From Flavobacteriia bacterium (GTDB lineage: Bacteria > Bacteroidota > Bacteroidia > Flavobacteriales > Schleiferiaceae), in assembly GCA_013373425.1 (NCBI GenBank), contig JABXHW010000030.1:42836-106835 (forward strand): a stretch of 64,000 nt of DNA, read 5' to 3'. Of this stretch, positions 4,267 to 31,759 are shown piece by piece. The notes beneath the pieces are model-generated. The model made no database searches. It was not told the DNA's origin and saw nothing but the letters and a program-made list of their open reading frames with translations. Each line of letters starts with the position of its first letter. Position 1 is the stretch's first letter. A program made the translations under genes and the position numbers.

Positions 4267-4276
4267 GAGAAGACCT

Positions 4277-5482: not shown

Positions 5483-5486
5483 GATC

Positions 5487-6194: not shown

Positions 6195-6195
6195 T

Positions 6196-6864: not shown

Positions 6865-6886
6865 CCGGAAGTAAAGAGATATAACG

Positions 6887-7504: not shown

Positions 7505-7528
7505 TTGAATTAGGAAAAAGAAAAGAAT

Positions 7529-10067: not shown

Positions 10068-11063
10068 ATGCTCAGACTTCTAAGTTTCATTTCGGTGCTT
10101 TCGCTCTTGATTTCATGTGGTGGTCCTGATGAGTACATCGTAACCTTACAAGGAAACACGCAAGGGACAACGTATAAGATTCTCTATGTGGTGGATCAAC
10201 CGATTCGATACAATGAGGCAGTAGATTCCATTCTATTTGCAGTGGATAGAAGCATGTCAGCATGGAATCCGCACAGCACACTGAGTAAGGTCAACCGAGG
10301 AATGGATTCACTGTTGGACCCACTCTTTCAGCAAGTCATCAAGAGGGGATTGCAAGTCTCGCAAATGACAAATGGCGCATTTGATATGACCGTTGCTCCT
10401 TTGGTCAATGCCTGGGGATTTGGTTCTATGGAGAAAGCGGATGTGGATTCCGCATATGTGGACAGCCTGCTGGGAATATCTGGCTACAAGCGACTTCACT
10501 TATTGTCGAGTGGCAGATTGCACCGCCCGGATGGAATGCAAATCGACGTCAATGCCATTGCCCAAGGCTATTCTGTGGATTTGGTTGCTGATTACCTTGA
10601 AAGCAAAGGCATCAATAATTACCTCATTGAAATTGGTGGGGAGATGCGTGCCAATGGGACCAAGTTCGGTAACAATTCGTGGGTGGTTGGGATTGATAAA
10701 CCGATGGAGACCATTCAGGAAGAGCGCTTTCAGATTACCTTGAATCTCGACACGATGTCGCTTGCTACGAGCGGTAATTATCGAAAATTCATTGTCGATG
10801 AAGAAACCGGTATCAAGTATAGCCATACCATCGACCCGCACACAGGTTACCCTGTCAGTGACCGTTTGCTCAGCGCAACTATTCTATCGCCTGATTGTAT
10901 GACTGCAGATGCAGTGGCCACCGCTTGCATGGTCATGGGCTTGGACAACGCCAAGGTTTGGGTTCAAGAACAACCCGAGTTTGAAGCTTACTTCATTTAT
11001 TCTGACTTAACCGGCGACCTGCAAGAATGGTGGACGCCGGGGTTTGAGAAGAGGAAGAGGTAG
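10068..11063 (+). CDS. apbE: FAD:protein FMN transferase (lipoprotein)
   Basis: 331 aa; lipobox LLISCGG, GTTYKI, DVNAIAQGYSVD, YSHTIDPHTGYPV. Confidence 0.92.
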   Translation: MLRLLSFISVLSLLISCGGPDEYIVTLQGNTQGTTYKILYVVDQPIRYNEAVDSILFAVDRSMSAWNPHSTLSKVNRGMDSLLDPLFQQVIKRGLQVSQMTNGAFDMTVAPLVNAWGFGSMEKADVDSAYVDSLLGISGYKRLHLLSSGRLHRPDGMQIDVNAIAQGYSVDLVADYLESKGINNYLIEIGGEMRANGTKFGNNSWVVGIDKPMETIQEERFQITLNLDTMSLATSGNYRKFIVDEETGIKYSHTIDPHTGYPVSDRLLSATILSPDCMTADAVATACMVMGLDNAKVWVQEQPEFEAYFIYSDLTGDLQEWWTPGFEKRKR

Positions 11064-13528: not shown

Positions 13529-13560
13529 TTGTACAATTACTTTCAATTCACATATATTTG
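13529..13560 (+). promoter_or_regulatory. Bacteroidota-type promoter (TTG-N21-TATATTTG) for the Nudix-regulator/glucan cluster
   Basis: TTG 13529-13531, 21-bp spacer, TATATTTG 13553-13560, 24 bp before the ATG at 13585. Confidence 0.7.
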
Positions 13561-13584
13561 AAACTCATCATTAGTACTTCACCC

Positions 13585-14331
13585 ATGGATGATAAGCCGC
13601 TTTCTAAGGATCCCAATCAGCAGTTTTCGGTGCCTTATTATGAGATACCTTATGAGAAGTTCTTCCAATTCGGTATGTCAGTAGACTCCGTAGTCTTCGG
13701 GTACCATGACGGACAACTCAAAGTGCTTCTTATTAAAAGAGGTGCTGCTCCATTTAAAGGAGAGCTCGCACTTCCTGGTGACTTGGTTTATCCAAATGAA
13801 ACCATTGAAGTAGCTGCTCATCGAATCCTTAAAGACCTAACTGGCATCGATGAGCATTTCATTCGTCAGACCAAAGTCTATTCGCAAGTCGACCGTCACC
13901 CTGTGGCGAGGGTCATTACAACTGGCGTTTATTCAGTTATAGATATTGCCAAGCACGATCCGCATGCATCGGCATGGGCGGAAGGTGTTTATTGGGTGCC
14001 CGTAGATGAAGTTCCGCATCTCGCATTCGATCACGATTGCATTTTCAGAGATGCACTCGAAATTCTCAGAGACCGCGTACGTAAAGAGCCGGTTGGATTT
14101 GAGCTCCTTCCAAGCAAGTTCGTATTGGCGGAGCTTCAAGGATTGTATGAAGCAGTGCTCAATGTAAAATTTGATAAGGCCAATTTCCGCAAGCGAATCC
14201 TCAGTGGAAAATTCCTTCGTGACCTCAATGAGTTTCAAGAAGGTGTGCCTCACCGTCCCGCTCGATTGTACTCTTTCGATGCAAATAAATATGAAGAGCT
14301 AACTTCAAGTGGATTCTCTATTCAAGTTTAA
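13585..14331 (+). CDS. NrtR/AraR-like transcriptional regulator (degenerate Nudix domain + C-terminal winged helix)
   Basis: VDSVVFGYHDGQLKVLLIKRGAAPFKGELALPGDLVYPNETIEVAAHRILKDLTGI; C-term FELLPSKFVLAELQGLYEAVLNVKFDKANFRKRILSGKFL. Start moved from TTG 13558 (inside the predicted -7 box) to ATG 13585. Confidence 0.8.
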   Translation: MDDKPLSKDPNQQFSVPYYEIPYEKFFQFGMSVDSVVFGYHDGQLKVLLIKRGAAPFKGELALPGDLVYPNETIEVAAHRILKDLTGIDEHFIRQTKVYSQVDRHPVARVITTGVYSVIDIAKHDPHASAWAEGVYWVPVDEVPHLAFDHDCIFRDALEILRDRVRKEPVGFELLPSKFVLAELQGLYEAVLNVKFDKANFRKRILSGKFLRDLNEFQEGVPHRPARLYSFDANKYEELTSSGFSIQV

Positions 14332-14335
14332 GCCT

Positions 14336-15667
14336 ATGAAGAAGCTACTTACCCTATTCGTCCTTTGTTCATCCATTCTGGTTTCTGCGCAAGCCATTCC
14401 GGTTCGCGTGGTTCAGTCCGATCACGGATTTACTTTGATGCGTGGCGGAGAGCCCTATTACATTAGAGGTGCTGGTGGACATGATAACTTGGATGAGCTC
14501 TTAGTTTTAGGAGGAAATTCAATTCGGACATGGAGTGCAGAAGACGCTGGCGAGATTCTAGATGCTGCGGAAGCGCACGGTTTAACCGTTATGTTCGGAC
14601 TTTGGGTGCAGCACGAACGTCATGGATTTAATTACAACGATGAAACGGCAGTTCAAGCGCAGCTCGATCACTTTCGAGAAATCGTGACCACCTACAAAGA
14701 TCACCCTGCACTGCTTCTATGGGGGGTAGGGAATGAGGTGGATCTTTTCTATTCGAACACTAAGGTTTGGGATGCCGTTCAAGACATCGCCGCCATGATT
14801 CACGAAGTTGATCCCAATCATCCTACTTCAACGGTCACTGCCGGAATCGACTCAACGGAGATTTACCTTATTAAAACGAGAGCTCCAGACATCGACATCT
14901 TCGCATGTAATACGTATGGGGATCTCTATAAAACACCCAGCAACATCATCAAGTATGGATGGGAAGGCCCGTTCATCATTGCAGAATGGGGGCCGAATGG
15001 ACACTGGGAAGTTGAAAAGACCGAATGGGGAGCTCCGATTGAGCAAACCAGCACAGAGAAGGCCGAGTCGTATGGTAGCAGATATGGCAATTACATCGCT
15101 TCTTATCGCGACCAATGCATTGGGTCGTATGTTTTCCTATGGGGACAGAAACAGGAGACCACCTCCACATGGTACGGGCTGTTTACAGAAGGAGGTAATC
15201 CCACAGAGCCATTAGATCGATTGTATGCCGCTTGGCAGGGAGAAGAGCCAATGAATGCTGCGCCGTCGATAGCGAGTCTCACCTTAGACAATAGAACGGC
15301 AAGCAATAGCATCTACTTGAAAGCCGAAGATGTATATGAAGCAGCTGTTGTCTTCTCTGATGACCGAAATGATGTGGATGTAGATTGGTTCGTGTATTCA
15401 GAAAGTACAGCCCAATCCGCTGGTGGTGATTTTGAGGATGCTATTCCCCCGGTGCTCGGCTTATTCAGCAGACGTGGTGACAATTCCGCCAGATTTAGAG
15501 CGCCAGAGGAAGAAGGAGCCTACCGTCTTTATGTGTTCATTACCGATGATGCAGGGAAGGTGGCTTACGCAAACATTCCATTTTATGTAAATCCGCGTTT
15601 AGAGTCCGATCCCCCTGCGCGCTCCATTCGACTCAAGCCTCAATCTTTAGACATCCCAGCGCCTTGA
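14336..15667 (+). CDS. Secreted clan GH-A TIM-barrel glycosidase (GH2-TIM-like; GH158-like is a possibility)
   Basis: Signal peptide MKKLLTLFVLCSSILVSAQA; IRGAGGHDNLDELLVLGGNSIRTW, acid/base-like GNEVD, nucleophile-like IIAEWGPNGHWE; C-terminal Ig-like region. Confidence 0.7.
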   Translation: MKKLLTLFVLCSSILVSAQAIPVRVVQSDHGFTLMRGGEPYYIRGAGGHDNLDELLVLGGNSIRTWSAEDAGEILDAAEAHGLTVMFGLWVQHERHGFNYNDETAVQAQLDHFREIVTTYKDHPALLLWGVGNEVDLFYSNTKVWDAVQDIAAMIHEVDPNHPTSTVTAGIDSTEIYLIKTRAPDIDIFACNTYGDLYKTPSNIIKYGWEGPFIIAEWGPNGHWEVEKTEWGAPIEQTSTEKAESYGSRYGNYIASYRDQCIGSYVFLWGQKQETTSTWYGLFTEGGNPTEPLDRLYAAWQGEEPMNAAPSIASLTLDNRTASNSIYLKAEDVYEAAVVFSDDRNDVDVDWFVYSESTAQSAGGDFEDAIPPVLGLFSRRGDNSARFRAPEEEGAYRLYVFITDDAGKVAYANIPFYVNPRLESDPPARSIRLKPQSLDIPAP

Positions 15668-15683
15668 TTTAGGCCATAACCTC

Positions 15684-17324
15684 ATGTCATCCCTCACTTT
15701 ACATAGCATCGATACTTGGGTCATCTTCGGATACTTCCTGCTAATTTTCATCGTGTCTGCAATCCTAATTGCTAAATCGAGAAGAGAAGAGGGTGCTGAA
15801 AATGCTCGAAGGTACTTCTTGGGAGGTAAAGGGTTTGGTTGGTTTGTGATTGGCGCTTCATTGTTCGCGTCAAATATTGGATCAGAGCACTTGGTAGGTT
15901 TAGCCGGAGCCGGAGCTTCTGGAGAATTCGTGGCCGCTCAGATTGAAATCATTGCGGCATTCATGCTATTGCTTTTGGGCTGGGTCTTTGTGCCATTCTA
16001 TTTGAAAACAGGAGTGTACACTATGCCCGAGTTTCTCGAACTCCGATATAATTCTTGGGCGAGAGGATACCTTTCTTGGGCCAGTGTCATCGCGTATATC
16101 CTGACAAAGATCTCAATCACCCTTGTTGCTGGAGGGTTAGTACTAACTGCCTTGTTGGATATTGATTTTTGGTGGAGTACGCTCATCATTGTAGCGGTGA
16201 CAGGATTGTACACGATCATAGGAGGACTGAAAGCTGTTTTATACACAGATATGATACAGCTTTTCGTCCTTCTGGGAGGAGCTGTCGCTTTGGTCTATTT
16301 CGGCTTAGATGCAGCAGGTGGTTGGAACAATGTCGTAGCATCCACGGAACCTAGTTATACCAGCCTATGGCGTACAATGAATGATGATGCTTTTCCATGG
16401 ACAGGCATTTTGATTGGCGCTCCCATTCTTGGAGTTTGGTACTGGTGTACAGATCAGTTTATCGTTCAAAGGGTGTTGGCCGCAAAGAACATCAAAGTAG
16501 CACGCAGAGGGGCTATTTTCGCTGGATTCCTCAAGCTTACACCGATGTTCCTATTCGTTATCCCAGGACTTATCGCATTTGTACTCTCCCAAGGACTAAA
16601 TCCTTTGATAGATTTCCCTGTCATTAATGGAGAAACAGCGTACGATTCAGCCCTACCACTATTGGCCATGTCGGTTTTACCCGAAGGGTTTAGAGGTCTC
16701 GTCATTGCCGGTTTGATTGCCGCTCTTATGAGCTCATTGTCCTCTGTTTTCAATTCGTGTTCAACTCTGTTCACGATGGATATCTATCGCAAATACAAGC
16801 CTGAAGCTGAAGAGGCGGAATTGGTTAAAGTAGGCCGTTGGGCAACCGTTTTAATAATAGGATTATCTCTCGCATGGATTCCAGTCCTTCAATCGCTAGA
16901 AGGAGGACTATTCCAGAAATTACAAAGTTTACAAGCTTATATCGCGCCGCCTATAGCTGCAGTCTTTCTATGGGGCGTCGCAACAAGACGGGTTGATGGG
17001 CGAGGTGCGAAAATCGCCCTCATTGTAGGCTCGCTTTTGGGTCTCGCCCGTCTCGTTTTAGAAAGTACAGGCGTTGAATTGCCAGGTGTTCTTTCCGTCT
17101 TTACGGAGATGAACTTCCTCCACTTCGCCATCTTCATTTTCGCAGTGAGCTCCGCGCTTCTCTTTTTCGTTCGCGACCGAAATCAGGTCGACTGGACAGT
17201 CGAAGCTGGGGCGTCAGATTTATCACTGCTCTCTATTAAAAGAATTACCGGAAATCGTACAAACGTGGTTCTTTCGGCCGTGCTTGTACTTTCCATCTTA
17301 ATCATCTGGTATGCGTTTTCTTAA
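15684..17324 (+). CDS. Sodium:solute symporter (SSS family, SGLT-like sugar cotransporter)
   Basis: 546 aa; FLGGKGFGWFVIGASLFASNIGSEHLVGLAGAGA signature, about 14 TM. Confidence 0.9.
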   Translation: MSSLTLHSIDTWVIFGYFLLIFIVSAILIAKSRREEGAENARRYFLGGKGFGWFVIGASLFASNIGSEHLVGLAGAGASGEFVAAQIEIIAAFMLLLLGWVFVPFYLKTGVYTMPEFLELRYNSWARGYLSWASVIAYILTKISITLVAGGLVLTALLDIDFWWSTLIIVAVTGLYTIIGGLKAVLYTDMIQLFVLLGGAVALVYFGLDAAGGWNNVVASTEPSYTSLWRTMNDDAFPWTGILIGAPILGVWYWCTDQFIVQRVLAAKNIKVARRGAIFAGFLKLTPMFLFVIPGLIAFVLSQGLNPLIDFPVINGETAYDSALPLLAMSVLPEGFRGLVIAGLIAALMSSLSSVFNSCSTLFTMDIYRKYKPEAEEAELVKVGRWATVLIIGLSLAWIPVLQSLEGGLFQKLQSLQAYIAPPIAAVFLWGVATRRVDGRGAKIALIVGSLLGLARLVLESTGVELPGVLSVFTEMNFLHFAIFIFAVSSALLFFVRDRNQVDWTVEAGASDLSLLSIKRITGNRTNVVLSAVLVLSILIIWYAFS

Positions 17325-19272
17325 ATCAACACAAAGGAAGGCCGTCGTACCACTCTTGCTTCTATCCACAGCAGGATGGAGCCAAGCTATCCCCGATTCC
17401 ACGGTATTGGATTGGGGAAGAGGTTCCTTCCCGAAGGAGAAGACCGACGAGATTTATCAATTAAAACTCAATGGCTTCTACCGATTCTTCTCGACGCATC
17501 TACTCATGGATCAGCCGTACGGACTAGATCCTAATTCGGGTGCAGTTTTGGACAATCGGACACTGTTCATCGGAGACGATAGTCAGTTGCCGAACTTGTG
17601 GCTGAATGTGAGTGGTAGACCAACTCGTAAAGCTTCCTGGGGCTTCGACCTGTTCATGTTTCAGTTCATGGATGGAAATGTAAACTCCACCTATGGTTCG
17701 GGTCAAGTGGCCCAGACGGCTCGTCCTACAGTATGGGATCCGTTGCCAGGCGTTCGTCTCGGCAACAACATGAGCCTGAATCTCGGAATGAACTTGTATG
17801 GATCTTACTTAACCGAAGTAGGGACATTCAACGTCCGTATGGGAGGTATTCACTGGTATTCCATGAGTGATCTTACCATGGCGACATTCCAAGGGTACAA
17901 TCGATTTACGCTTACTGAACGCAATCCGTGGGATCCCATCGGGAATCGCCTTGGAGTTCGCTATCAGCAAATGTTCCAGAATGGAGATGTATACCAAGAT
18001 ACACGTTGGGGTGAGCGCGCATTGCAAGGTATTATCGTCGACGGAATCAACCTTCCCGGGGATTTGAATGTGTCGGCATTCTTTGGAAAAACGGAACTCA
18101 ATGGTGGGTTCCTAACTATCCCCAACAATACCTACGGTGGCATGATCACACACATGTATAATGATGAGGATGTGATCAAGTTCAATACTATCAACAATAC
18201 AACTTGGCAAGATTCCCTCAATGAGATGCAACTTGGATTCAATGTTCACACTTTTGAGTGGGATGCGAATTACGAGTATTTCCGGGCACATGTTGAAGCA
18301 GGGATTGGGCGCTTCAGGAGAGATGGAGAAGATTACCCCTGGGGTGAAGCCATCAACGCGAAAATCACTACCAAGAGAAACGTATTACCCATTCCAATTG
18401 AGGTTCAATATTATCGCGTGAGCCCATATGTGGTAAACAACAACGCTATTTTCTGGAATGCATCCTTCGCAGAGTTTCAGAACGTGAATCAGACAAGCGT
18501 TTCGACTCAAGGCTCGGCTGTGCTCACACCTTTTGCGAGTTCGGTAACCATGCTCGGACAGATGACGAACAACCGAACCGGTGTCAATTTGAATACAGCT
18601 TTTAAGGTGGGCGACTTTAATATTGGTTTGGGATACGGAATTTCTAGGGAGATTCAAGCGATACAGAGCAGAGTTACTTTCTCTCATTTTGTAAATCAGC
18701 TCACCAGAAGTCGTTTTTGGCGTTGGACATTCCCGAGTAATGTAGGCCCATACGGCAACTACAGCAAGGTGTATCGTGATGCGTTCCAGTTGGTTAATCT
18801 TACCGACGATAGCTTAGGTGTAACCGTGACACCTAAGTATTTCAATCAATTTGAAGTACACGCCAAGTACAGGACCAAGCTGGCGTATCGCAATTTCTAT
18901 GCGTTCTTCTTGGGAAGGTATTACACGGTTCAACCAGAGTTCTCTTTCCTTCCACAGTTCAATGGAGAACCGTACTTGAGGTTGTATAGCTCAGAATTGG
19001 AGATGTTCTACGAATTGTCTGAATCCTTCATTATCAACTCCTACTTGGGGTATGAAAGGAATATCGGCAATTATGATACGGAGCTCAATGGAAACACGCT
19101 ACGTCCGCTCAATCAGAACGGATGGGGTGTAGGTGTTGGCTTCGATGTTAGTCTTGGAAGCAATGCGGGACTCTTTTTCCGCCATCGTTGGTTCTCGTTT
19201 GAGGACACAAGTTTTGAATTGGATGCCTTTAGCGGGCAGGAAAGCAGTCTCGAACTCAAAGTATTTTTCTGA
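17311..19272 (+). CDS. Outer-membrane beta-barrel-like protein of unrecognised family
   Basis: 653 aa; signal peptide; alternating aromatic beta-strand pattern; C-terminal ELKVFF. Confidence 0.6.
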   Translation: MRFLKSTQRKAVVPLLLLSTAGWSQAIPDSTVLDWGRGSFPKEKTDEIYQLKLNGFYRFFSTHLLMDQPYGLDPNSGAVLDNRTLFIGDDSQLPNLWLNVSGRPTRKASWGFDLFMFQFMDGNVNSTYGSGQVAQTARPTVWDPLPGVRLGNNMSLNLGMNLYGSYLTEVGTFNVRMGGIHWYSMSDLTMATFQGYNRFTLTERNPWDPIGNRLGVRYQQMFQNGDVYQDTRWGERALQGIIVDGINLPGDLNVSAFFGKTELNGGFLTIPNNTYGGMITHMYNDEDVIKFNTINNTTWQDSLNEMQLGFNVHTFEWDANYEYFRAHVEAGIGRFRRDGEDYPWGEAINAKITTKRNVLPIPIEVQYYRVSPYVVNNNAIFWNASFAEFQNVNQTSVSTQGSAVLTPFASSVTMLGQMTNNRTGVNLNTAFKVGDFNIGLGYGISREIQAIQSRVTFSHFVNQLTRSRFWRWTFPSNVGPYGNYSKVYRDAFQLVNLTDDSLGVTVTPKYFNQFEVHAKYRTKLAYRNFYAFFLGRYYTVQPEFSFLPQFNGEPYLRLYSSELEMFYELSESFIINSYLGYERNIGNYDTELNGNTLRPLNQNGWGVGVGFDVSLGSNAGLFFRHRWFSFEDTSFELDAFSGQESSLELKVFF

Positions 19273-20990
19273 TGAAGAAGTTTAACTATATCACGCTGAC
19301 TTTAGTCTTACTCGGACTTTCGTCATTTGATGCACTTGCCCAGCAAAAGGTTTGGGTTTCGGGTGCAGCCCGAGGTATCATGTATGCGGATGAATACGGC
19401 ATGGAAGGCGACTCAACTACCGCGCGCCGTCAGGAATCTGGCCATACTATGGTTGACGTTGGGGTGAATATTCGTCCAAACGACAACATATACATTCTTG
19501 GGATGGTCCGTGTCCGTAACGACTACGGCGGATTCTGGGGAAGTGGTGTCACTTTCGATGTTCGTCAGCTTACGTTAAAAGGAATTCTAGGCGGATTCTT
19601 GAAGTATGAGCTTGGCGATATCGATTACCGAATGACTCCGTACACCATGTACAATAACGTATCCATGGCGAATCGTTTTGCCGGTGAAATCACCACTACA
19701 CCCTTGGAGCAAATTCAATACGATTTATTCTTTACGGATGACAATACGTGGAGACAGCAAGGTGGGTCTGTGAATTTCGGATTGGAGTTCAGCTCTGTTT
19801 TGCAAGAGGCGCAGTTCGATTTCTTCACGACTCGCGTGCGAACCACCAACTTCACCAGTTTTGATGATCGCCTATTCAGTGGAGGTAGTATCGTTCTTCT
19901 TCAAAGCGATCGATTTAAAGTAGGTGGGCAGTATGCCAATTTGTGGGATTTGAGTGGGACAAGTGACGCAACGGTCTTCCTGAGAAACCCTGTAATGACC
20001 TTAACTTCTGAGTACACGCTTCCATTTGCGAATTCAAGCTTGTCGGTTGCCTTGGAAACAGGGCGCTCGACCATGCGATGGGAAGGGGATGCGGAGGCTC
20101 CGGAATTGAATGACTTCTTTTACGATGTTCGACTTCGTTGGAAAGAGAACTCATCTGGATTTTCGGCAGAATTGGGATACCGAGAAGTTGGACCGAACTT
20201 CCGAGCTCCTGGAGCGCAGACCTTGAGAATTAACTATGCGAGTCAGCCTCGAGCCTATGGTAGAATTGGAAACGACCAAACAGCCAGAGTGCTCAGCCTG
20301 CTCGACTTGAGTAGGGACGCATCGCTTTATCGCACGCAAATCAACTCTTCATTGATGAGTTATGATCCGCGTTATGACAATGCAACTCCATACGGTTTAG
20401 CAACTCCAAACCGCACGGGCTTCACAGCGAAAGTGGGATATGAAGATGCACAGAAGCGCTGGAAGGCAGGCGTTGAAGCCGATATGTTGAACGACCTAGT
20501 GGGATTGGGAACAACAGCGCTCACTTCGTACAACACGCTTTACGGAGATGTTGAACTACGAATCGATCGCATGATTGCCTCAATCGCTAACCTCGACAGA
20601 GAAATTGTGATTTCGGGAGGGTATGGAATGCAGGCATCGGCAAGAACTGGTGAAAACGCCTATGAAACCATTGACCTATCTAGTGCGTTCTATAATATGA
20701 ACCTCTCAGCTACTCTTGTGGGTGACTTGTCACTCATCGGAGAATGGAGAAACTGGCAAACATCAGGATCGACGTTGGTCAGTGAGCGTAACATGTACAC
20801 CGAGATTATTGATTTCACGGAGTATGATATTGATTACAACGAGAGCATTATGGGCATCGGTTTGAAGTATGCATTTGCAGAGGGAACCGCACTGCGTATC
20901 ATGTATCAAAACTTCGACTGGAATGATAGTCAGTCGATGGAAGCATTTGACATTAGGACTTGGAACATCTACTTCACCATGAAGTTTTAA
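19272..20990 (+). CDS. Outer-membrane beta-barrel-like protein of unrecognised family
   Basis: 572 aa; signal peptide ...SFDALAQQK; amphipathic strands; C-term TWNIYFTMKF. Confidence 0.6.
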   Translation: MKKFNYITLTLVLLGLSSFDALAQQKVWVSGAARGIMYADEYGMEGDSTTARRQESGHTMVDVGVNIRPNDNIYILGMVRVRNDYGGFWGSGVTFDVRQLTLKGILGGFLKYELGDIDYRMTPYTMYNNVSMANRFAGEITTTPLEQIQYDLFFTDDNTWRQQGGSVNFGLEFSSVLQEAQFDFFTTRVRTTNFTSFDDRLFSGGSIVLLQSDRFKVGGQYANLWDLSGTSDATVFLRNPVMTLTSEYTLPFANSSLSVALETGRSTMRWEGDAEAPELNDFFYDVRLRWKENSSGFSAELGYREVGPNFRAPGAQTLRINYASQPRAYGRIGNDQTARVLSLLDLSRDASLYRTQINSSLMSYDPRYDNATPYGLATPNRTGFTAKVGYEDAQKRWKAGVEADMLNDLVGLGTTALTSYNTLYGDVELRIDRMIASIANLDREIVISGGYGMQASARTGENAYETIDLSSAFYNMNLSATLVGDLSLIGEWRNWQTSGSTLVSERNMYTEIIDFTEYDIDYNESIMGIGLKYAFAEGTALRIMYQNFDWNDSQSMEAFDIRTWNIYFTMKF

Positions 20991-21002
20991 AACAGGAAGA
21001 GG

Positions 21003-22001
21003 ATGAAGAAATTATTTTTAATCGGATTGGTTGCAAGCATCGCGATTTCATGTAATCGCGACACAGAACCTTTGGGGCCAGGCTTAGATGAAATCTATGG
21101 TCCATTTTCAGTCTTGGAAGATTTTCAAGTGTCCGACAATGCGGTAGACTTCAAATCGGGCGAGAACCTTGTTTTCTCCGTGAGATTCAGTAAAACGGTA
21201 GATTGGGAACTACACGTCATTGGCGAAACCTCTGGCGCAGAGAAGGTTCTTTCCGGAAAATCAAAGGTCGTGGATGAATCGAATGCTACTTGGGATGGCA
21301 CGACGACTACACCACCTATGTTCAAAGAAGAGAGCTGTTGGGCCTATGTGACCGTTCCTGAAGAGGGATATGCGGATACCATTATGGGACTGACCATCGA
21401 TAGTGCGCGTACCGTTTCAGGGTTTGTCGTGGCCGATTTCGAAAACGGTATCAATCCAGGATGGAACATTTTCGCTCAATCAGGAGCTAATATGAGCTTC
21501 AATATTGTTGAGGCGGACAGCGCGGCGCAAAGCGGACATTACTATGACATGGGTGGCGAGGTAAGTTGGGACTGGCTTATCGGTCTAATCGACTTCCCAG
21601 CAAGCGCCTATGGAGTACAAGCGTATCCACTCTCCGATAACTCCGGAGAGGTTTATTTCAACACTTTTCTTTATGTTCCAGAAGGGATTTCGAATGAGGT
21701 GATTTTATTTCAGTTCAGTGAGGATGAAGACGGCAACGGCTCTTTCCAATCTGCAAGTGAAGATATGTACTCTCTTGAGTTGAGAGGGCTAGAAACGGGT
21801 TGGCAACTGATATCAGTGCGCTACTCTGATTTGCAAGCGCTCGTGAATGGTCAGCCTTCAACACCTGCCGGAAATGAAGTACATGAGCCTCACAAGCTGT
21901 ATCAAGTTTCCCTTCTTTTCTTGGCAAACCCCAGCTCAGGATACTCTCAAACATTCGTAGACTATATCGTCTTTACGGAGAATGGACCATTAGTACCATG
22001 A
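21003..22001 (+). CDS. Lipoprotein, candidate surface glycan-binding protein
   Basis: 332 aa; lipobox SIAISCN; beta-sandwich/CBM-like C-terminal half (VADFENGINPGWNIF...FVDYIVF). Confidence 0.6.
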   Translation: MKKLFLIGLVASIAISCNRDTEPLGPGLDEIYGPFSVLEDFQVSDNAVDFKSGENLVFSVRFSKTVDWELHVIGETSGAEKVLSGKSKVVDESNATWDGTTTTPPMFKEESCWAYVTVPEEGYADTIMGLTIDSARTVSGFVVADFENGINPGWNIFAQSGANMSFNIVEADSAAQSGHYYDMGGEVSWDWLIGLIDFPASAYGVQAYPLSDNSGEVYFNTFLYVPEGISNEVILFQFSEDEDGNGSFQSASEDMYSLELRGLETGWQLISVRYSDLQALVNGQPSTPAGNEVHEPHKLYQVSLLFLANPSSGYSQTFVDYIVFTENGPLVP

Positions 22002-23215
22002 GTTCGGCTGGGAAACATATCGGTTTAATGGTGATGGCCTTAGTCGCTGTTTCGAGCTGTGTGAGCGTTCAAGAGAACAGCTTTTACATTGAAACACCGG
22101 AGGAGCCAAAGCCATTTCACACTTCGCAAGAGATTTATCACGATTACATGACCTCTGAGTTTTGGATGTCTCGTGAAGGAGGTTGCATCGAAGTGACTGC
22201 TGGAAAGGAGTATGCCAGAGCAGGTAATGCCGGATTAAATCTAAAATGGTCGAAGGTTTCCAATGGCTGCGATTGGGTGGGCTTTGGCTTCGGCTGGGAC
22301 AATTGGAGTGGCAAAGACCTAAGCTCAATCTACTCCACAGGAAGCATCCAATTCTATGTGAGATTGAAGGAAGGGGAAAGAACAACACTGCCTTGGGCGG
22401 TGGGTATTGAGGACTTTTCCGGAGCACAAGCTTGGCTGGGTATGTCGAGCAACGCTGTTGAAGGAGATGCCATCACTACGGAATGGACAAAGATTCAGCT
22501 TCCACTTTCAGAATTCAATTGGGATGAGCAAGGAGCAGACCCATCCAATATCAAGCAAGTGATCATTGAAGTTCAAGGCGACGGTGAGATCGAGATTGAT
22601 GAAATCAGCCTTGCCCCGTATGAAGGTGGGTACAGAAAACGTGCAGTCCTCCAAGTAGCAGAGAATAACCTCCAAATTGATGGAAGGTTGATAGAAGAGG
22701 TTTGGAGATCCGATGCTCTTCAGGTAGGTCAAAGTCAAATTCACATTGCTGCTTCGGCAGGTGGATTGATGATGGCCGGAAGAATAATGGATGAAACCCC
22801 ATTAGTGAATGCACATGACGGTGCAGAGATTTACAACGGTGATGCTGTTGAGATTGCATTTTCAACCGACCAAGGCTCTTACACACGAAGGACCATGTAT
22901 CGTTCTACCGATCGTCATTTTGGTATTCGCATGAGTAGGACTCCCCAGGTGTATGATTTCCGCGCTAAGCGTGTGGTAGAGAATGCTACGGTTGCAGTGT
23001 ATGAAACGCAAAATGGGTATTCCTTCGAAGCATTTATTCCTGTGCCGAATTTTACAGATGAGATACTGAAAGCAGGGCAACTTTTCGGATTAGAAGTAGC
23101 CGTTGATCAAGGCGATAGTGAAGTAAGAGAGATTCAGCAGAGATGGAATAATCCAGAAGCTGCAGGATTTCACGAATACCCCAACTTGTGGGGCGAGATG
23201 ATAGTTAAACGATAG
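21998..23215 (+). CDS. Lipoprotein with N-terminal CBM-like and C-terminal CBM9-like domain
   Basis: 405 aa; lipobox VAVSSCV; NNLQIDGRLIEEVWRSDALQVG...YNGDAVEIAFSTD characteristic of CBM9-like domains. Confidence 0.7.
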   Translation: MSSAGKHIGLMVMALVAVSSCVSVQENSFYIETPEEPKPFHTSQEIYHDYMTSEFWMSREGGCIEVTAGKEYARAGNAGLNLKWSKVSNGCDWVGFGFGWDNWSGKDLSSIYSTGSIQFYVRLKEGERTTLPWAVGIEDFSGAQAWLGMSSNAVEGDAITTEWTKIQLPLSEFNWDEQGADPSNIKQVIIEVQGDGEIEIDEISLAPYEGGYRKRAVLQVAENNLQIDGRLIEEVWRSDALQVGQSQIHIAASAGGLMMAGRIMDETPLVNAHDGAEIYNGDAVEIAFSTDQGSYTRRTMYRSTDRHFGIRMSRTPQVYDFRAKRVVENATVAVYETQNGYSFEAFIPVPNFTDEILKAGQLFGLEVAVDQGDSEVREIQQRWNNPEAAGFHEYPNLWGEMIVKR

Positions 23216-23219
23216 CGCT

Positions 23220-24041
23220 ATGAAATTGAGATATACATTCTTGTTCATCATTGGATTCATACTCCAAGGCTGCACGCAATCGAATCCCGTGTTCAATGCA
23301 CGTGAAGGAGATACCTTGACTTTCTCAGGAAGAAAGTGGACTATTAAACACAGTGTGGGGCTACAAGGTCCCGGCCCCAATCTCTTTTCCAAGCATCCAA
23401 ACGATGTTTTTGTAGATGAGAATGGGTACCTGCACCTAACGATATCATTGCGTGAAAATCAGTGGCAATCCACCGAGGTAATCTCCGAAGAGAACATGGG
23501 CTATGGAACCTACATCTGGACACTCGAAGGAGATCCTGTGAATATCGATGAACAGGCAGTTATTGGTCTATTTACCTGGGACAATAATACTTTTCAAGAA
23601 CAGGCGAACAGCGAAGTGGACATTGAATTCTCAAAATGGGGAGATGCGAGTGAAACGCAGACACTTCAATATGGCGTTCAACCGATATTCTTTGGTCCTT
23701 ACAACGAAGAGCGCGTGGACCAGCCTCAAGAGAACAGCGACAATTGGATCGGAGTGAGCACGCATGCCTTCACTTGGACAGATACATTGATTACCTGGCA
23801 GAGTTGGATTGGGTCGGAGTATGGGGCTGGCGAGCCAGATGCTAGCTGGTCGTTCGATTTAGATAATCCCGCAAAGATCAAGTACGAAGGGAACAATCAA
23901 AGCGACCCTATCATCATTCCTGCTCCTGGTGAAACTACCAATGCCAGGATGAACTATTGGTTGTTGAGCGGACTCGACGGTCCGAATTCGCAAACGCGAC
24001 ATGAGATTATCATTCGCAAGTTCGATTATATCCCACTATAA
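23220..24041 (+). CDS. GH16-like lipoprotein (divergent)
   Basis: 273 aa; lipobox ILQGCT; EVDIEFSKWG matches E-x-D-x-E of GH16 clan; jelly-roll character. Confidence 0.6.
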   Translation: MKLRYTFLFIIGFILQGCTQSNPVFNAREGDTLTFSGRKWTIKHSVGLQGPGPNLFSKHPNDVFVDENGYLHLTISLRENQWQSTEVISEENMGYGTYIWTLEGDPVNIDEQAVIGLFTWDNNTFQEQANSEVDIEFSKWGDASETQTLQYGVQPIFFGPYNEERVDQPQENSDNWIGVSTHAFTWTDTLITWQSWIGSEYGAGEPDASWSFDLDNPAKIKYEGNNQSDPIIIPAPGETTNARMNYWLLSGLDGPNSQTRHEIIIRKFDYIPL

Positions 24042-24058
24042 CCTAACCTTACATCACT

Positions 24059-25630
24059 ATGTCGACTTCCGTAAATTCTTCGGCGTTGATCCGTATTGCC
24101 CTCATCGTGGCACTTGGCGGATTGCTTATGGGCTTCGATGCTTCTGTTATTTCAGGAGTAAATAAGTTTATCAAACTTGAGTTTGAATTGACCGACTTCC
24201 AGCTTGGGTGGGCGGTGAGTTCTCTGACGCTGATTGCTGCCTTAGCTATGCTGGTTTCTGGACCTTTAAGCGATCGCTATGGTCGCCGTGCTGTACTTCG
24301 CGTGGCATCTGTTCTCTATGCAATTTCTGCATTGGGTTCGGCTTTAGCTCCAGATTTTACTTGGTTGGTAGTCTTCAGGATGATAGGCGGATTGGGCGTT
24401 GGCGCTTCATTGATCCTTGCACCAATGTACATCGCGGAGATTGCACCATCGGAAGAACGAGGCAAGCTCGTATCATTCAACCAGCTCAACATCGTAATCG
24501 GTATTACACTGGCTTACTTCACAAACTTACTGATTGTTGACCTTGGAGATTCCGATTTGGCCTGGGTGGAGAGTTTGGGAATCAAGGAGCACAATTGGCG
24601 CTGGATGTTGGGTCTTGAAGCTGTTCCAGCCGTTCTCTATTTCTTATGTCTATTCATGGTGCCGAGAAGTCCACGTTGGTTGCTAATGCAAGGCAAGAGT
24701 GAAGAGGCTACAAGAATCTTTGCTCGTTTCTTCGATCCAGCTCGAATCAAAGAAGAGGTGAGTTCTATTGTTGAGAGCTTAGACAATCCAGATAAGAATA
24801 AATCAAGGGTTAAAGATCTGTTTAACCCTGCCCTTAAACTCGTTCTCACCATTGGATTGGTGATGGCAGTACTCCAGCAGATCACCGGTATTAACGCGGT
24901 CTTCTTCTATGCACCTATGATATTTGAACAAACCGGAATTGGAACCGATGCGTCCTTGATGCAAGCTGTTCTCGTTGGATTGGTCAATCTCGTTTTCACC
25001 GTCATAGCGATGATCGTTATTGATCGTTTAGGACGAAAACCGCTCCTGATCATCGGTGTATTGGGTATCACTTTGAGCATGGCAACATTGAGCTATTCGT
25101 TCAGTCAGGCTACATATACCTACAACGAAGATTCATTCAAGAACATCGAGTGGGAGATGGGTACAGGTCAGCCTGAAACCATCAATGCTGCTTCTTTCGA
25201 CAATCGTTCTGAATTTAGAGCACACCTGCAGGCTGAAGTCAGCGAAGTTACATGGGAGAAGCACAGAGCAGACATCACGAATCACAGCATCGGTGTCGAC
25301 GGATGGGTGGTGCTTATTGCCATCCTGGTCTTTGTAGCCTCTTTCGCGGTTTCTGTAGGGCCCGTAATGTGGGTGCTCTTTTCTGAATTATTCCCAACCA
25401 TGATTCGCGGGTTGGCCATCGCCGTAGTTGGACTGGTAAATTCATTGGTTAGTTTCGGAGTTCAATTGGTATTCCCGTGGGAGCTTGACGCACTCGGCAG
25501 TACAATCACATTTGCTCTTTATGGTGGATTTGCCTTCTTCGGACTCATATTCATCTTGAGAGTGGTTCCTGAAACTAAAGGCCGAACCCTCGAGCAAATC
25601 GAAGATGAACTTGTAACCAATAAATCATGA
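24059..25630 (+). CDS. MFS sugar porter (XylE/GLUT-like)
   Basis: 523 aa; GFDASVISGVNKFI, DRYGRRAVLR, RxxGGLGVGA, QQITGINAVFFYAP, PETKGRTLEQIE. Confidence 0.95.
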   Translation: MSTSVNSSALIRIALIVALGGLLMGFDASVISGVNKFIKLEFELTDFQLGWAVSSLTLIAALAMLVSGPLSDRYGRRAVLRVASVLYAISALGSALAPDFTWLVVFRMIGGLGVGASLILAPMYIAEIAPSEERGKLVSFNQLNIVIGITLAYFTNLLIVDLGDSDLAWVESLGIKEHNWRWMLGLEAVPAVLYFLCLFMVPRSPRWLLMQGKSEEATRIFARFFDPARIKEEVSSIVESLDNPDKNKSRVKDLFNPALKLVLTIGLVMAVLQQITGINAVFFYAPMIFEQTGIGTDASLMQAVLVGLVNLVFTVIAMIVIDRLGRKPLLIIGVLGITLSMATLSYSFSQATYTYNEDSFKNIEWEMGTGQPETINAASFDNRSEFRAHLQAEVSEVTWEKHRADITNHSIGVDGWVVLIAILVFVASFAVSVGPVMWVLFSELFPTMIRGLAIAVVGLVNSLVSFGVQLVFPWELDALGSTITFALYGGFAFFGLIFILRVVPETKGRTLEQIEDELVTNKS

Positions 25631-26847
25631 TAATTAGATCAGCAATTCTCACACTGGCGGTTTTGCTTATTTCTTGCCAATCAGAGCAAGAATGGATCAT
25701 TGATGATAATTCGTATATCCGATTTAAGGCAGAAGATCTGGTCCAAGTGGATAGCAACTCCTGGGAAATCCCTTTTACGGTTGATGTGACGACTTCCGGC
25801 AGATATATCGTTCGACCTTATCAAATGGACACAGATACTGTTGAGATGTGGTTGGAGGATTACGTGGATAACAAGGATGAAAGAACGTACAATGTGACAG
25901 GCACCATGCATGTCTTCAATACTCGTGAAACGAACCCTCGAGATGTAGAGCAAGTACATGGATCTCCGCTAGGAGAAGGACGCCATCACATGAAGCTTCA
26001 CCTCAATCGTGGGGACATAGAGGACATTTTTCTTGAGTTTGAATTGATCCAGTCGCACAAAGCCTCGGAAGAGGTTCTGACGCAGTCGATGTCTGGAGAA
26101 GTATGGACACAAGTATGGGGAGATGAATTCAATGAAGATGGTTTGCCTGATACTACCAAATGGACCTACGATGTGGGTGATTGGGGCTGGGGAAACAATG
26201 AGCTTCAGTATTACACAGTCGCAGATGCTCGCAATGCACACGTCTCGGATGGAACTTTGAAAATCACCGCTCGACGAGATTGGGAGGGAAACTGGACTTC
26301 AGCTCGTTTGACGACTCGCGGCAAGACTGCGTTCACTCACGGACGAATCGAGTTCAGAGCAAAGGTGCCCACCCATCGTGGAACTTGGGCTGCTGGATGG
26401 CTGTTGGGCAACGAATACGTAGACGAGATTTCTTGGCCTTACTGCGGTGAAATCGATGTCCTAGAATGCGTGGGCTTTGAGATTGACGATACCATAGGGC
26501 AAGGACTCAATCACGCCACATGCCACACAAGGAAGTACTATTTCAAGCAAGGCAATCAGATTGGTGCCGAGATAGAGGTGGATAGTATGAATACGGTTTT
26601 TCACACGTATGCCATTGAGTGGGATGAGAAAGAGGTTCGAGCTTTTTTGGATGGTGAGCATTACTACACCTACGACAAGAATGCCGATGAACTAGAATGG
26701 CCGTTTAACGATCCTCAGAACATTATCATCAACCTCGCTATTGGCGGTGGTTGGGGAGGCGCTCAAGGCATGTCGGATTTCGACAATGCCGTGTATGAGC
26801 TCGACTATGTAAGAGTATATGAGCGTGCAACTTCAATCGTTCCATGA
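25627..26847 (+). CDS. GH16 beta-glucanase (laminarinase-like) lipoprotein
   Basis: 406 aa; lipobox LLISCQS; WGDEFNEDGLPDTTKWTYDVGDWGWGNNELQYYT, AGWLLGNEY, catalytic GEIDVLECVG. Confidence 0.9.
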   Translation: MIIRSAILTLAVLLISCQSEQEWIIDDNSYIRFKAEDLVQVDSNSWEIPFTVDVTTSGRYIVRPYQMDTDTVEMWLEDYVDNKDERTYNVTGTMHVFNTRETNPRDVEQVHGSPLGEGRHHMKLHLNRGDIEDIFLEFELIQSHKASEEVLTQSMSGEVWTQVWGDEFNEDGLPDTTKWTYDVGDWGWGNNELQYYTVADARNAHVSDGTLKITARRDWEGNWTSARLTTRGKTAFTHGRIEFRAKVPTHRGTWAAGWLLGNEYVDEISWPYCGEIDVLECVGFEIDDTIGQGLNHATCHTRKYYFKQGNQIGAEIEVDSMNTVFHTYAIEWDEKEVRAFLDGEHYYTYDKNADELEWPFNDPQNIIINLAIGGGWGGAQGMSDFDNAVYELDYVRVYERATSIVP

Positions 26848-28331
26848 GAATCCTTGTACTCACCGTTTCATTACTTTTTTTAGTCTCCTGTTCGAATGAA
26901 AACAATTGGAGTTCTTCCGCCGTGGTCACCTCGGCTGAAGGTCACAAATGGACTCCAGTAGAGGAGGGGATAGAGGGAGAGGCCTCAACGACACTTGTTC
27001 TACAACCTGAACTCACCTATCAAGAAATTTTGGGTATTGGAGGCGCATTCACTGAGTCGAGTGCAGCTCTGCTCAATGCTATGCCTGAATCCATTTACGA
27101 TTCCATCATTCAAGCTTATTTCAGTGAGGAAGGGTGCAACTACACCTTGACGCGCACCCACATGGCCAGTTGTGATTTTTCATTAGCGCCCTATTCCTAT
27201 GATGAGGTTCCAGGAGATACAGCCTTGGAATACTTCACTATTGAGCCTGATCGAGACGATTTGATTCCCATGATAAAACGCGCTCAAGATGCTTCGCCGT
27301 CAGGGTTCAATATCATCGCTTCGCCGTGGACCGCTCCACCGTGGATGAAGGATAATGAAGCCTGGTTTGGAGGAAGTTTGAAGGAAAAATTTTATCCCGT
27401 TTGGGCCGACTTTTTTGCCAATTACATCGAGGCATATGCCGAGGAAGGTATTGACCTCTGGGGCGTGACTGTAGAGAATGAGCCTCTTGGAAACGATGCC
27501 CACTGGGAGAGTATGCATTACACTCCTGAGACGATGGGACAGTTCGTGTCCCAGCATTTAGGTCCGCGTTTAGCCGATGTAAATCCTGATTTGCAGATTC
27601 TCCTCTACGATCAAAACAGAGGCGAGGAACTTGTAGAGTGGGGCGAGCATTTGCTTCACGATGATGCCGTGTTGGAATACGCGGATGGCTTTGCGGTACA
27701 CTGGTACAACAGCACTTATGACGTCTTCCCTGAATCATTGGATGCCATTCACGAAATGCAGCCCAATCTTCATTTGATTGAAACCGAGGGTTGTGTAGAT
27801 GCTGAAAAGCCAGCTTGGCAAAATGATGCTTGGTATTGGGACACCACCGCCACCGACTGGGGATTTGATTGGGCGAAAGAAGAGGATAAATACTTACACA
27901 GGCCTTACGTACCGGCCTATCGATACGCAAGGGATATCATCGGTTGTCTGAACCATTGGGTAGAAGGCTGGATTGACTGGAATATGGTCCTTGATCAAGA
28001 AGGCGGTCCCAACCACGTTTCCAACTGGTGTGTTGCTCCCGTGCTAGTGGATACCACAAAACAAGAAGTGTATTTCACGCCCCTTTACTTTGTCATGGGG
28101 CAATTCAGTAAATACATCAAGCCGGGCGCTCACCGCATCGGGTTTGAAACAAGTAAGAGTGAATTGCAGATGACCGCCATCGAGAATCCACAAGGAGACT
28201 TGGTCGTCTTTGTCTTGAATGAAGGACCAGAGGAATCCTTGAGAATTGAAATCGGTGAACAGGGATTTGAGTACATTATTCCTGCTCGCAGCATTGAAAC
28301 AATACATCTAACTCGAGAAATCGAAGAATGA
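26844..28331 (+). CDS. GH30-family glycoside hydrolase (glucosylceramidase/beta-1,6-glucanase-like) lipoprotein
   Basis: 495 aa; lipobox LLFLVSCS; GIGGAFTESSAALLNAM, SPWTAPPWMKDN, VTVENEPLG, LIETEGC. Confidence 0.88.
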   Translation: MRILVLTVSLLFLVSCSNENNWSSSAVVTSAEGHKWTPVEEGIEGEASTTLVLQPELTYQEILGIGGAFTESSAALLNAMPESIYDSIIQAYFSEEGCNYTLTRTHMASCDFSLAPYSYDEVPGDTALEYFTIEPDRDDLIPMIKRAQDASPSGFNIIASPWTAPPWMKDNEAWFGGSLKEKFYPVWADFFANYIEAYAEEGIDLWGVTVENEPLGNDAHWESMHYTPETMGQFVSQHLGPRLADVNPDLQILLYDQNRGEELVEWGEHLLHDDAVLEYADGFAVHWYNSTYDVFPESLDAIHEMQPNLHLIETEGCVDAEKPAWQNDAWYWDTTATDWGFDWAKEEDKYLHRPYVPAYRYARDIIGCLNHWVEGWIDWNMVLDQEGGPNHVSNWCVAPVLVDTTKQEVYFTPLYFVMGQFSKYIKPGAHRIGFETSKSELQMTAIENPQGDLVVFVLNEGPEESLRIEIGEQGFEYIIPARSIETIHLTREIEE

Positions 28332-31300
28332 CGAAGATATTTTCCGGCAATCAAGAGTTGCACCACAGAACCGCTGAAGTTTCAGGTGAACTCGTTAACA
28401 TCGACGGTGAAAGATTCTATAAGATTGAGCATGTAGATCACATGCGACATTTTTTCATGAGCGTTGTCAGTGCTTATGATCACTGGCTTTTTATATCCAG
28501 CAACGATGGAATCACGGCTGGACGAAACTCTGCGGAGAAAGCACTTTTCCCATATTACACAGCCGACCTGATCATCCATGATGCTTCGCGAACAGGTGGA
28601 TATACCAGTGTTCGAGTGCACACGGATGAAGGACTCAAGCTTTGGCGTCCATTATCCAATCACTACCGAGGAATTTATCGGGTTTGGAAGAATGCGTACA
28701 AGAATGCTGCTGGAAACCGACTCATTCTTGAAGAGGTGAATGAAGACCTGGGATTGGTTTTCACTGTGGAGTGGACAAGTGCCAAGAAGGAGGGAATCAT
28801 CCGCAGATGCGCATTGACGAATACATCTGACAAAGCGGTTAAGCTGGATATCCTTGATGGACTCTTGAATGTAATGCCAGCGGGGATTAGTCCGGAGATG
28901 CAGCAAATGAAAAGTGTGCTCGTGGATGGATATCGTCACACGGAACTCGACGAAGAAACGGGCTTGGCCATGTTCAATTTGGGCTCTAAAATTGTAGATA
29001 AAGCAGAACCGAGCGAGTCGCTTTCTTCCAACGTGGTTTGGAATGCCGGACTTAAAAGAGAAGCCGTTTTGCTCTCCTCTGCGCAGATTCCTGTGTTTGG
29101 AGCTGGAGGAAAAGTAGAAAACGAACCATACGTGAGAGGCCAGAAAGGTGCGTACCTGGTTCAATCTACATTAGCGCTAGAGCCAAAGGAAATCAAAGAA
29201 TGGGTGGTGGTTGGAGATGTAGACCTGTCTACCGCTCAAGTGGCGAATACAATGGCCTCATTGAAATCGGGAGAGTTCTCATTCGAAGCGACCATCCGCG
29301 GAATTGATGAAGGAACCCTCGCTTTGCAGAAGCTCGTGGCCATGAATGATGGTCAGCAGCGCACAGGCGATGTGAGCACAGAGATGCGTCATCACAACAA
29401 CGTACTTTTTAACGTCATGCGAGGCGGACTTTTCCGCAAAGGGTACGCGGTGCAAATTGCGCATTTACGTGATTTTGTTACCCACTATAACAAAGGGTAT
29501 GCGTCGGTTTTCGATGCGCATTTCAAAGGTGATGTATTGACTTACCCGGAGCTTTTATCCAAGTTAGATTCTATTGAGCACTCAGGACTGAAGCGACTTT
29601 GCACCATGTATTTGCCATTGTCTTTCAGTAGGCGACATGGCGATCCATCCCGACCTTGGAATAAGTTTGACATCCAATCAGACGCCAATGAAGCCGGAAC
29701 CTATGAAGGAAACTGGCGCGACATCTTCCAGAATTGGGAGGCGATGTCGTATTCCTATCCGCATTACATCTTTGGAATGATATACAAGTTCCTCAACTCT
29801 TCTACGATTGACGGGTACAATCCGTATCGAATCACGGAAGAGGGAATCGATTGGGAAGTCATTGAGCCTGATGATGAATGGTCTTATATCGGGTACTGGG
29901 GCGATCACCAGATTGTGTATTTACACCGTTTACTCGTGCATGCTGAGAAGCATTTCCCGGGTCGACTTTCGAAAGCCCTGCGTGAAAAGTCGTTCGCATA
30001 CGCGAATGTGCCGTACCGTATCAAGGGATTTGATGCTATCAAGCTTAACCCTAAGGATACGATTGATTATGACTTTGATGTAGCGGACCAGGTAGAGAAG
30101 CGCAAAGAGAAAATCGGTGAAGATGGAGCTATGGTTCCTGACGATCAAGGCTATCTCCTAGAGGCTACATTGCTTGAAAAGCTCATGGTTCCACTCTTGG
30201 TGAAGCTCTCGAATTTTGTCCCGAATGGCGGTATTTGGCTCAACACTCAACGTCCCGAATGGAACGACGCGAACAATGCTTTGGTAGGCTATGGTATGTC
30301 TGTGGTTACAATCGGACAAATGGTACCCTTCATAGACACACTCATCGATTTGATCGAGCGTGATGCCAGTGCTGATTTTGAGGTCAATGAAAATGTTGCT
30401 CAACTCTTCAGTAGGGTCTATGAAGTGTTGAAGAATGCTGAACCTTCTGAATCCATGATGGGCGCACGTGTTCGAGCTGAGGTTGTTGAGTCGTTGGGTA
30501 GGGCTGGTGAGACTTATCGTCAGAACGTGTATGACTCTGTTAGCTCAAATCGATCAAAACTCAATCCGAAGGATATTCTGGAGGCTCTAAATACTTTCAA
30601 GGCACATCTTCAAGCTACTTTGGCAAGTAACCGAAGAGATGACAGTCTGTTCCACTCTTACAATTTGATGAATTGGGAAGGGGATGGTTTGGAGATCGAA
30701 CGACTGCCGCTTATGTTGGAAGGTCAGGTAACGGCTTTGCCATCGCTAGCGAGTAACAAAGCGGAATTGAAGCGGACGTTAGAAGCGCTTTTCAAAAGTG
30801 CGTTGTATCGAAAGGATCAAGACAGTTTCATGCTGTATCCGAACCGCGATATGCCGAGAACACTTGCTAAGAATACCTTGTCGAAGGACGAGCTGAAGGG
30901 CAATGTGCTGATTGAGATGATGCATTTAAATGCGGATTTCAGGATAATCGAATTGGACAAAGCGGGAGGACTTCACTTCAATGCTTCCCTTCACAATGCG
31001 GATGCCTTGAGAGAGGTGTTGGAGTCCTTGAAAGCGGAAGGACTGGAGAAAGAAGTGGAGGCCAGTGCTTATCAGTTATTGGATGCTTATGAGCGTAAGT
31101 TCAATCACCGAGCGTTTACGGGAAGATCAACTACATTCTTTGCTTTTGAAGGACTGGGATCGATTTACTGGCACATGGTTTCAAAGCTCTATCTCGCATC
31201 TCTAGAAACAATATGCGATACGGATTTGGCTGAATCGAGGGACGAAGAGTTGCTTGACATTGCCGCTCATATGAAACGCGGCATTGGCGCTCAGAAATCC

Positions 31301-31759
31301 CCAGAGCAATATGGAGCCTTTCCAACCGATCCATATTCACATACCCCAGCTCATGCGGGAGCTCAACAGCCTGGAATGACGGGTCAGGTGAAGGAGGATG
31401 TTTTGTCGAGATGGATTGAATTGGGTGTTCGTGTAAACGACGGACAGTTGTCATTTGCTCCTATTCGTCTGAGCCGTCAAGAGCAACTCTCAGAAGCCAT
31501 TGAGCTCAAATACATGGACGCCGCCTTTAATTGGAAATCGATTAATGTAGCTCCGGGCGAACTCGCCTTCACCTATTTAGGCATTCCTGTCATTTACTCC
31601 GAGGGCGAAAAAGACGAACTCAGAATCCAGTTTGCTTCAGGCAGCACGAAAGAGCTTTCCGGACTCAAGCTTTCTCCAGAATTAAGCGCGGAATGCTTCG
31701 AGAGGAAATCTGGCGTTGAGGTGGTGAGAGTTGTGTTGAGTAGCGGCAGATGGGGGTGA
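28328..31759 (+). CDS. Large cytoplasmic protein, putative GH94/GH149-like beta-glucan phosphorylase
   Basis: 1143 aa, no signal peptide; N-terminal beta-sandwich-like half, then NTQRPEWNDANNALVGYG (WND as in GH94-type catalytic acid region) and GTYEGNWRDIFQNWEA; operon context with beta-glucanases. Confidence 0.5.
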   Translation: MTKIFSGNQELHHRTAEVSGELVNIDGERFYKIEHVDHMRHFFMSVVSAYDHWLFISSNDGITAGRNSAEKALFPYYTADLIIHDASRTGGYTSVRVHTDEGLKLWRPLSNHYRGIYRVWKNAYKNAAGNRLILEEVNEDLGLVFTVEWTSAKKEGIIRRCALTNTSDKAVKLDILDGLLNVMPAGISPEMQQMKSVLVDGYRHTELDEETGLAMFNLGSKIVDKAEPSESLSSNVVWNAGLKREAVLLSSAQIPVFGAGGKVENEPYVRGQKGAYLVQSTLALEPKEIKEWVVVGDVDLSTAQVANTMASLKSGEFSFEATIRGIDEGTLALQKLVAMNDGQQRTGDVSTEMRHHNNVLFNVMRGGLFRKGYAVQIAHLRDFVTHYNKGYASVFDAHFKGDVLTYPELLSKLDSIEHSGLKRLCTMYLPLSFSRRHGDPSRPWNKFDIQSDANEAGTYEGNWRDIFQNWEAMSYSYPHYIFGMIYKFLNSSTIDGYNPYRITEEGIDWEVIEPDDEWSYIGYWGDHQIVYLHRLLVHAEKHFPGRLSKALREKSFAYANVPYRIKGFDAIKLNPKDTIDYDFDVADQVEKRKEKIGEDGAMVPDDQGYLLEATLLEKLMVPLLVKLSNFVPNGGIWLNTQRPEWNDANNALVGYGMSVVTIGQMVPFIDTLIDLIERDASADFEVNENVAQLFSRVYEVLKNAEPSESMMGARVRAEVVESLGRAGETYRQNVYDSVSSNRSKLNPKDILEALNTFKAHLQATLASNRRDDSLFHSYNLMNWEGDGLEIERLPLMLEGQVTALPSLASNKAELKRTLEALFKSALYRKDQDSFMLYPNRDMPRTLAKNTLSKDELKGNVLIEMMHLNADFRIIELDKAGGLHFNASLHNADALREVLESLKAEGLEKEVEASAYQLLDAYERKFNHRAFTGRSTTFFAFEGLGSIYWHMVSKLYLASLETICDTDLAESRDEELLDIAAHMKRGIGAQKSPEQYGAFPTDPYSHTPAHAGAQQPGMTGQVKEDVLSRWIELGVRVNDGQLSFAPIRLSRQEQLSEAIELKYMDAAFNWKSINVAPGELAFTYLGIPVIYSEGEKDELRIQFASGSTKELSGLKLSPELSAECFERKSGVEVVRVVLSSGRWG

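Follow-up and report, generated by a model that had tools for sequence, protein, structure and literature searches.

The protein of 1143 residues encoded at positions 28328 to 31759 (+ strand) of the window, by which we mean the whole 64,000-nucleotide stretch of DNA analysed, is, at a probability of roughly 93%, a cytoplasmic GH149 beta-1,3-glucan phosphorylase whose gene closes a laminarin-type utilisation operon. A preliminary description had proposed such an enzyme from a motif, and what was then a guess is now a firm annotation. The analysis suggests phosphorolysis as this bacterium's chief means of degrading algal-type beta-1,3-glucan.

Family assignment and fold

The relationship to GH149 is established by the NCBIfam equivalog profile NF058639 (GH149_beta_1_3), which the protein matches at 1396.6 bits, above the curated cut-off of 1150 bits, over residues 16–1137 (positions 3–1133 of the 1134 in the profile). 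Pfam gives no match to the enzyme, an absence that carries no weight. When PDB sequences are searched with phmmer, the best match is Pro_7066 (6HQ6/6HQ8; E = 6.2e-291, residues 9–1135), a bacterial GH149 enzyme that has been biochemically characterised and crystallised (PMC5827456, PMC6771811). GH161 entries come next, with local similarity at E about 1e-10 (7e-11), and an entry named cellobiose phosphorylase (9h8v) yields a phmmer alignment nearly identical to that of a GH161 entry.

An AlphaFold2 model built on an alignment of 34 homologues (mean pLDDT 84, pTM 0.86, with low confidence in the active-site loops) agrees with the GH149 crystal structures 6HQ6/6HQ8, giving a TM-score of 0.94 as one whole-chain score over about 1140 columns; the structurally aligned residues are about 40% identical. 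The homology to Pro_7066 is full-length, and its architecture is matched here: an N-terminal beta-sandwich, a helical linker, an (alpha/alpha)6 domain, a C-terminal jelly roll, and the extra domains Dom1/Dom2. GH161 beta-1,3-glucan phosphorylases (PapP, and the PDB entries 9qqk/9gy9) and the GH94 laminaribiose phosphorylase PsLBP (6ggy/6gh3) have the GH-Q clan fold and a WND-type catalytic Asp in common with the protein; they are 13–16% identical to the model, with TM-scores of 0.64–0.66 and 0.57–0.59, respectively. This common clan, together with the local GH161 similarity, is what could be said for placing the protein in GH94 or GH161 instead of GH149, but the probability of either is negligible: the GH149 profile match, the phmmer values (6e-291 versus 7e-11 for GH161, with no convincing GH94 match), and the TM-scores (0.94 versus at most 0.66 for GH161 and 0.59 for GH94) refute it. 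Sequence, fold, and active-site mapping confirm the earlier GH149 reading and identify the protein as GH149 proper.

Active site

The segment PEWNDANNALVGYG (residues 643–656), which opens with PEWNDANN (643–650), contains the WND that had been likened to a catalytic-acid region. The likeness is borne out, as the motif aligns with W651-N652-D653 of Pro_7066 and is placed on the catalytic loop of that enzyme's (alpha/alpha)6 domain. It is also invariant in all 89 homologues examined, and is therefore not a chance motif. The active site published for Pro_7066 comprises W651-N652-D653, with D653 catalytic, together with R470-D471, E951, and H959 (PMC6771811); with the published residue numbers mapped at a chain numbering offset of 19, every residue named there is kept in the window protein:

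29717 to 29722, + strand: R464-D465 (Pro_7066 R470-D471), sugar-1-phosphate recognition, from the alignment
30260 to 30268, + strand: WND motif W645-N646-D647, in an ungapped alignment block with Pro_7066
31148 to 31174, + strand: E941 (Pro_7066 E951) and H949 (Pro_7066 H959, predicted phosphate recognition), from the alignment

The equivalents of R464-D465, E941, and H949 are likewise invariant among the 89 homologues. Since D647 matches the catalytic D653, it is probably the general acid of an inverting phosphorolysis. Six residues ahead of E941, T935 replaces a Gly that is otherwise invariant in the 89-homologue alignment.

Gene content of the operon

The GH149 reading frame is intact as described earlier, running uninterrupted from its ATG with zero internal stops. 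It is the last of twelve + strand genes (13558–31759), and by ORF coordinates the neighbours in this run overlap or are separated by no more than about 20 bases; the GH149 ATG and the GH30 stop share 4 nt (ATGA).

13558 to 14331, + strand: NUDIX-NrtR/AraR-type transcriptional regulator (PF21906, PF19368, PF00293)
14309 to 15667, + strand: GH158 endo-beta-1,3-glucanase (phmmer to GH158 structure 9oro, E = 6e-100)
15684 to 17324, + strand: sodium:solute (SSS) symporter (PF00474, TIGR00813)
17311 to 19272, + strand: OMP1, predicted outer-membrane beta-barrel, uncharacterised (mostly-beta AlphaFold2 model)
19272 to 20990, + strand: OMP2, predicted outer-membrane beta-barrel, uncharacterised (no Pfam match)
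21003 to 22001, + strand: uncharacterised lipoprotein of the OMP cassette (no Pfam or NCBIfam match; kept within the cassette)
21998 to 23215, + strand: lipoprotein with CBM30-like and CBM9-like domains (domain matches)
23220 to 24041, + strand: GH16-like lipoprotein (invariant EVDIE motif; no Pfam or PDB match)
24059 to 25630, + strand: MFS sugar porter, inner membrane (PF00083, E = 4e-107; TIGR00879 over cut-off)
25627 to 26847, + strand: GH16 laminarinase lipoprotein (PF00722; laminarinase 3iln, E = 9e-63)
26844 to 28331, + strand: GH30 lipoprotein, GH30_1-like, putative beta-1,6-debranching enzyme (phmmer to glucosylceramidases, E = 1e-78)
28328 to 31759, + strand: GH149 beta-1,3-glucan (laminaridextrin) phosphorylase, 1143 aa (NF058639; 6HQ6; TM 0.94)

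The other eleven proteins are smaller (257–653 aa), and the earlier statement that the operon encodes no other large cytoplasmic protein is fair. With the exception of the NrtR-type regulator, these eleven have signal- or lipobox-like N termini or are membrane transporters, as read by eye from their sequences, and the GH149 protein itself is probably cytoplasmic. For the regulator there is a precedent in Bacteroides, where arabinose use is controlled by an NrtR-family protein (PMC4666351). The called GTG start of the GH158 gene overlaps the regulator gene, and a downstream ATG is the likelier start. The GH30 lipoprotein scores 203 bits against the NCBIfam endo-1,6-beta-glucanase model, under the equivalog cut-off of 700. 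An invariant ANSEVDIEF motif marks the GH16-like lipoprotein at 23220–24041, which possibly represents an undescribed GH16-related group. Scans for promoters and terminators gave chance-level results only.

Conservation and comparison with known laminarin loci

Laminarin is a major marine polysaccharide, and the operon reads from its gene content as a laminarin-type utilisation locus. Its complete gene order is also found in a congener (G002), and the order MFS-GH16-GH30-GH149 is kept in G002, G010, G016, and G029 as well as in two Flavobacteriales MAGs (L024 and L026). GH149 clusters and laminarin PULs of marine Bacteroidota likewise combine GH149 with GH16, GH30_1, and MFS genes (PMC5827456, PMC6246565, PMC13188888); unlike them, the window operon is without GH17 and has GH158, an SSS symporter, and an NrtR-type regulator. 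In place of their SusCD it has a cassette of two OMPs and two lipoproteins, and Pfam and NCBIfam profiles find no susC/susD pair among the operon ORFs. Previous work had already described GH149 enzymes, GH149 in laminarin loci, and "CAZyme clusters lacking susCD" that contain GH149 (PMC5827456).

Relatives of OMP2 occur in 55 of 398 genomes of the host's order. A generic OMP barrel model matches two of 16 OMP2 members, weakly, and PDB profile searches with OMP1 and OMP2 gave nothing useful. The OMP1 model, mostly beta and of low confidence (mean pLDDT 63), retrieves nothing more specific than outer-membrane barrels of a generic kind (TM up to 0.38). In 14 neighbourhoods of the order, a set picked by OMP2 similarity and to be read with that ascertainment in mind, OMP1 and OMP2 are clustered with the lipoprotein and the CBM protein; GH158 adjoins the cassette in all of these except three (L152, L158, and L160), whose contigs are short or cut. 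The OMP2-selected neighbourhoods showed no ORF that resembles SusC in size and type. OMP2, the lipoprotein, the CBM protein, and GH158 are also present in a Rhodothermales MAG (L014). Several cassette loci carry GH3, while GH149 is the last gene in those of the window, G002, and G008, and in laminarin loci of Muricauda GH3 takes the place of GH149 (PMC13188888). A targeted search of the open-licence literature found no title or abstract describing the cassette. At slightly under even odds, we tentatively propose that the cassette, with its two unassigned barrels and two surface lipoproteins, forms an undescribed, SusCD-independent beta-1,3-glucan uptake system whose terminal step is taken alternately by a hydrolytic GH3 or a phosphorolytic GH149; such a system would be shared by several families of the order and partly by the Rhodothermales MAG, with GH158 beside it wherever the flanks can be checked. 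For laminarin, the conserved cassette is a candidate alternative to SusCD uptake that can be put to the test.

The genome's only SusD found, and its only SusC-family match over cut-off, lie together on another contig (L104, G000:C69:1-18000). Their neighbours are an alpha-amylase-family protein, a GH65 enzyme, and a HAD-type (beta-phosphoglucomutase-like) gene, along with a weak BadF-type kinase match. GH65 includes maltose phosphorylases, and the locus seems to serve starch or maltose, also by phosphorolysis. Because this starch locus carries a GH65-family enzyme, phosphorolysis may serve for both storage glucans.

Proposed pathway

GH149 enzymes catalyse both the phosphorolysis and the synthesis of beta-1,3-gluco-oligosaccharides, and take acceptors of DP 1. 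In the pathway that we propose, surface and periplasmic GH16 and GH158 enzymes would cleave beta-1,3-glucan and the GH30_1-like enzyme would strip beta-1,6 branches; the oligoglucosides would cross the outer membrane, probably via the OMP1/OMP2 cassette, and the MFS or SSS transporter would bring them into the cytoplasm. There GH149 would release glucosyl units from the non-reducing end through an inverting attack by phosphate, with Asp647 as general acid, and a phosphoglucomutase would pass the resulting alpha-glucose-1-phosphate to glycolysis, a route that would save ATP. Operation mainly in synthesis, making beta-1,3-glucan from glucose-1-phosphate, is very improbable: the GH149 reaction is reversible in vitro (PMC5827456), but the operon has three or more beta-glucanases as well as importers, and related loci have a catabolic GH3 in the place of GH149.

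The rest of the genome, which is about 96% complete and in which absences are therefore provisional, yielded no GH1, and its sole GH3 found is NagZ-like, with a second domain that resembles beta-lactamases when read by eye. With neither a GH1 nor an ordinary GH3 beta-glucosidase found, the chief visible route by which imported beta-1,3-oligoglucosides become sugar phosphate would seem to be phosphorolysis. Two phosphohexomutase-type genes are present in the same genome; a glucokinase of the PF02685 or ROK type was not found.

Divergence of the GH149 protein and its surface site

The window protein shares no more than 46% identity with any homologue found. In the GH149 tree it is paired with that of congener G002 (SH-aLRT 100), with end branches of 0.91 and 0.77, respectively, against a median of 0.3. 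It departs from the consensus at 17 of 248 near-invariant columns and the G002 protein at 21, while none of the 89 homologues besides these two exceeds 10. Between the window and G002, identity falls from 80% for the regulator to 66–69% for the transporters, 53% for GH30, and 45% for GH149; between G029 and G016, GH149 is again the least conserved shared gene (53%). Recent horizontal gain is unsupported, as the gene's GC (47.1%) and GC3 (49.2%) match the rest of the operon and the tree pairs the protein with its congener at full support. Rapid divergence could also point to a decayed, inactive copy, but we hold this to be highly unlikely given a full-length, intact frame, GC and GC3 typical of the operon, and the retention of all active-site residues.

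Among the less expected features, along with an operon that is without SusC/SusD, is the loss of a surface sugar-binding site. In Pro_7066 this site binds laminarihexaose; its residues K831, E838, Y841, E990, Y993, E994, and R1062 correspond to F822, K829, D832, D977, A980, H981, and S1049 in the window protein, and are thus not conserved, although GH149 membership does not depend on them. Both stacking tyrosines (Y841 and Y993) are absent, where Tyr is common elsewhere, or Phe at the second position. The missing residues are a lead toward changed specificity and not proof of it. Together with the 17 deviating columns and T935, they may give this enzyme a different preference for acceptor length or different kinetics. 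A GH149 member with such a shift, for example a short-chain (DP2-4) specialist, would go with the surface-site loss and the fast divergence in the genus, and the alteration of all seven surface positions and the two long branches speak for it. We nevertheless consider this somewhat unlikely, as the donor and catalytic sites are intact and the surface site is already less conserved in bacterial GH149s under 60% identical to Pro_7066 (PMC6771811), so that its loss need not alter specificity.

Other observations

Upstream of the operon, genes at 2914–8836 read by eye as a Na+-translocating NADH:quinone reductase (Nqr) operon, followed by an ApbE-like gene (10068–11063). The GH149 family has been described mainly from Gram-negatives, and a contig of Halolactibacillus miurensis (L069, Bacillota) encodes a full GH149. 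Two relatives of genus g6 (L009 and L119) have GH149 genes with one in-frame TAA inside the matched stretch. In a further locus (L127, G097:C23), the GH149 match lies within an unusually long open frame (1587 aa), a possible fusion or upstream extension.
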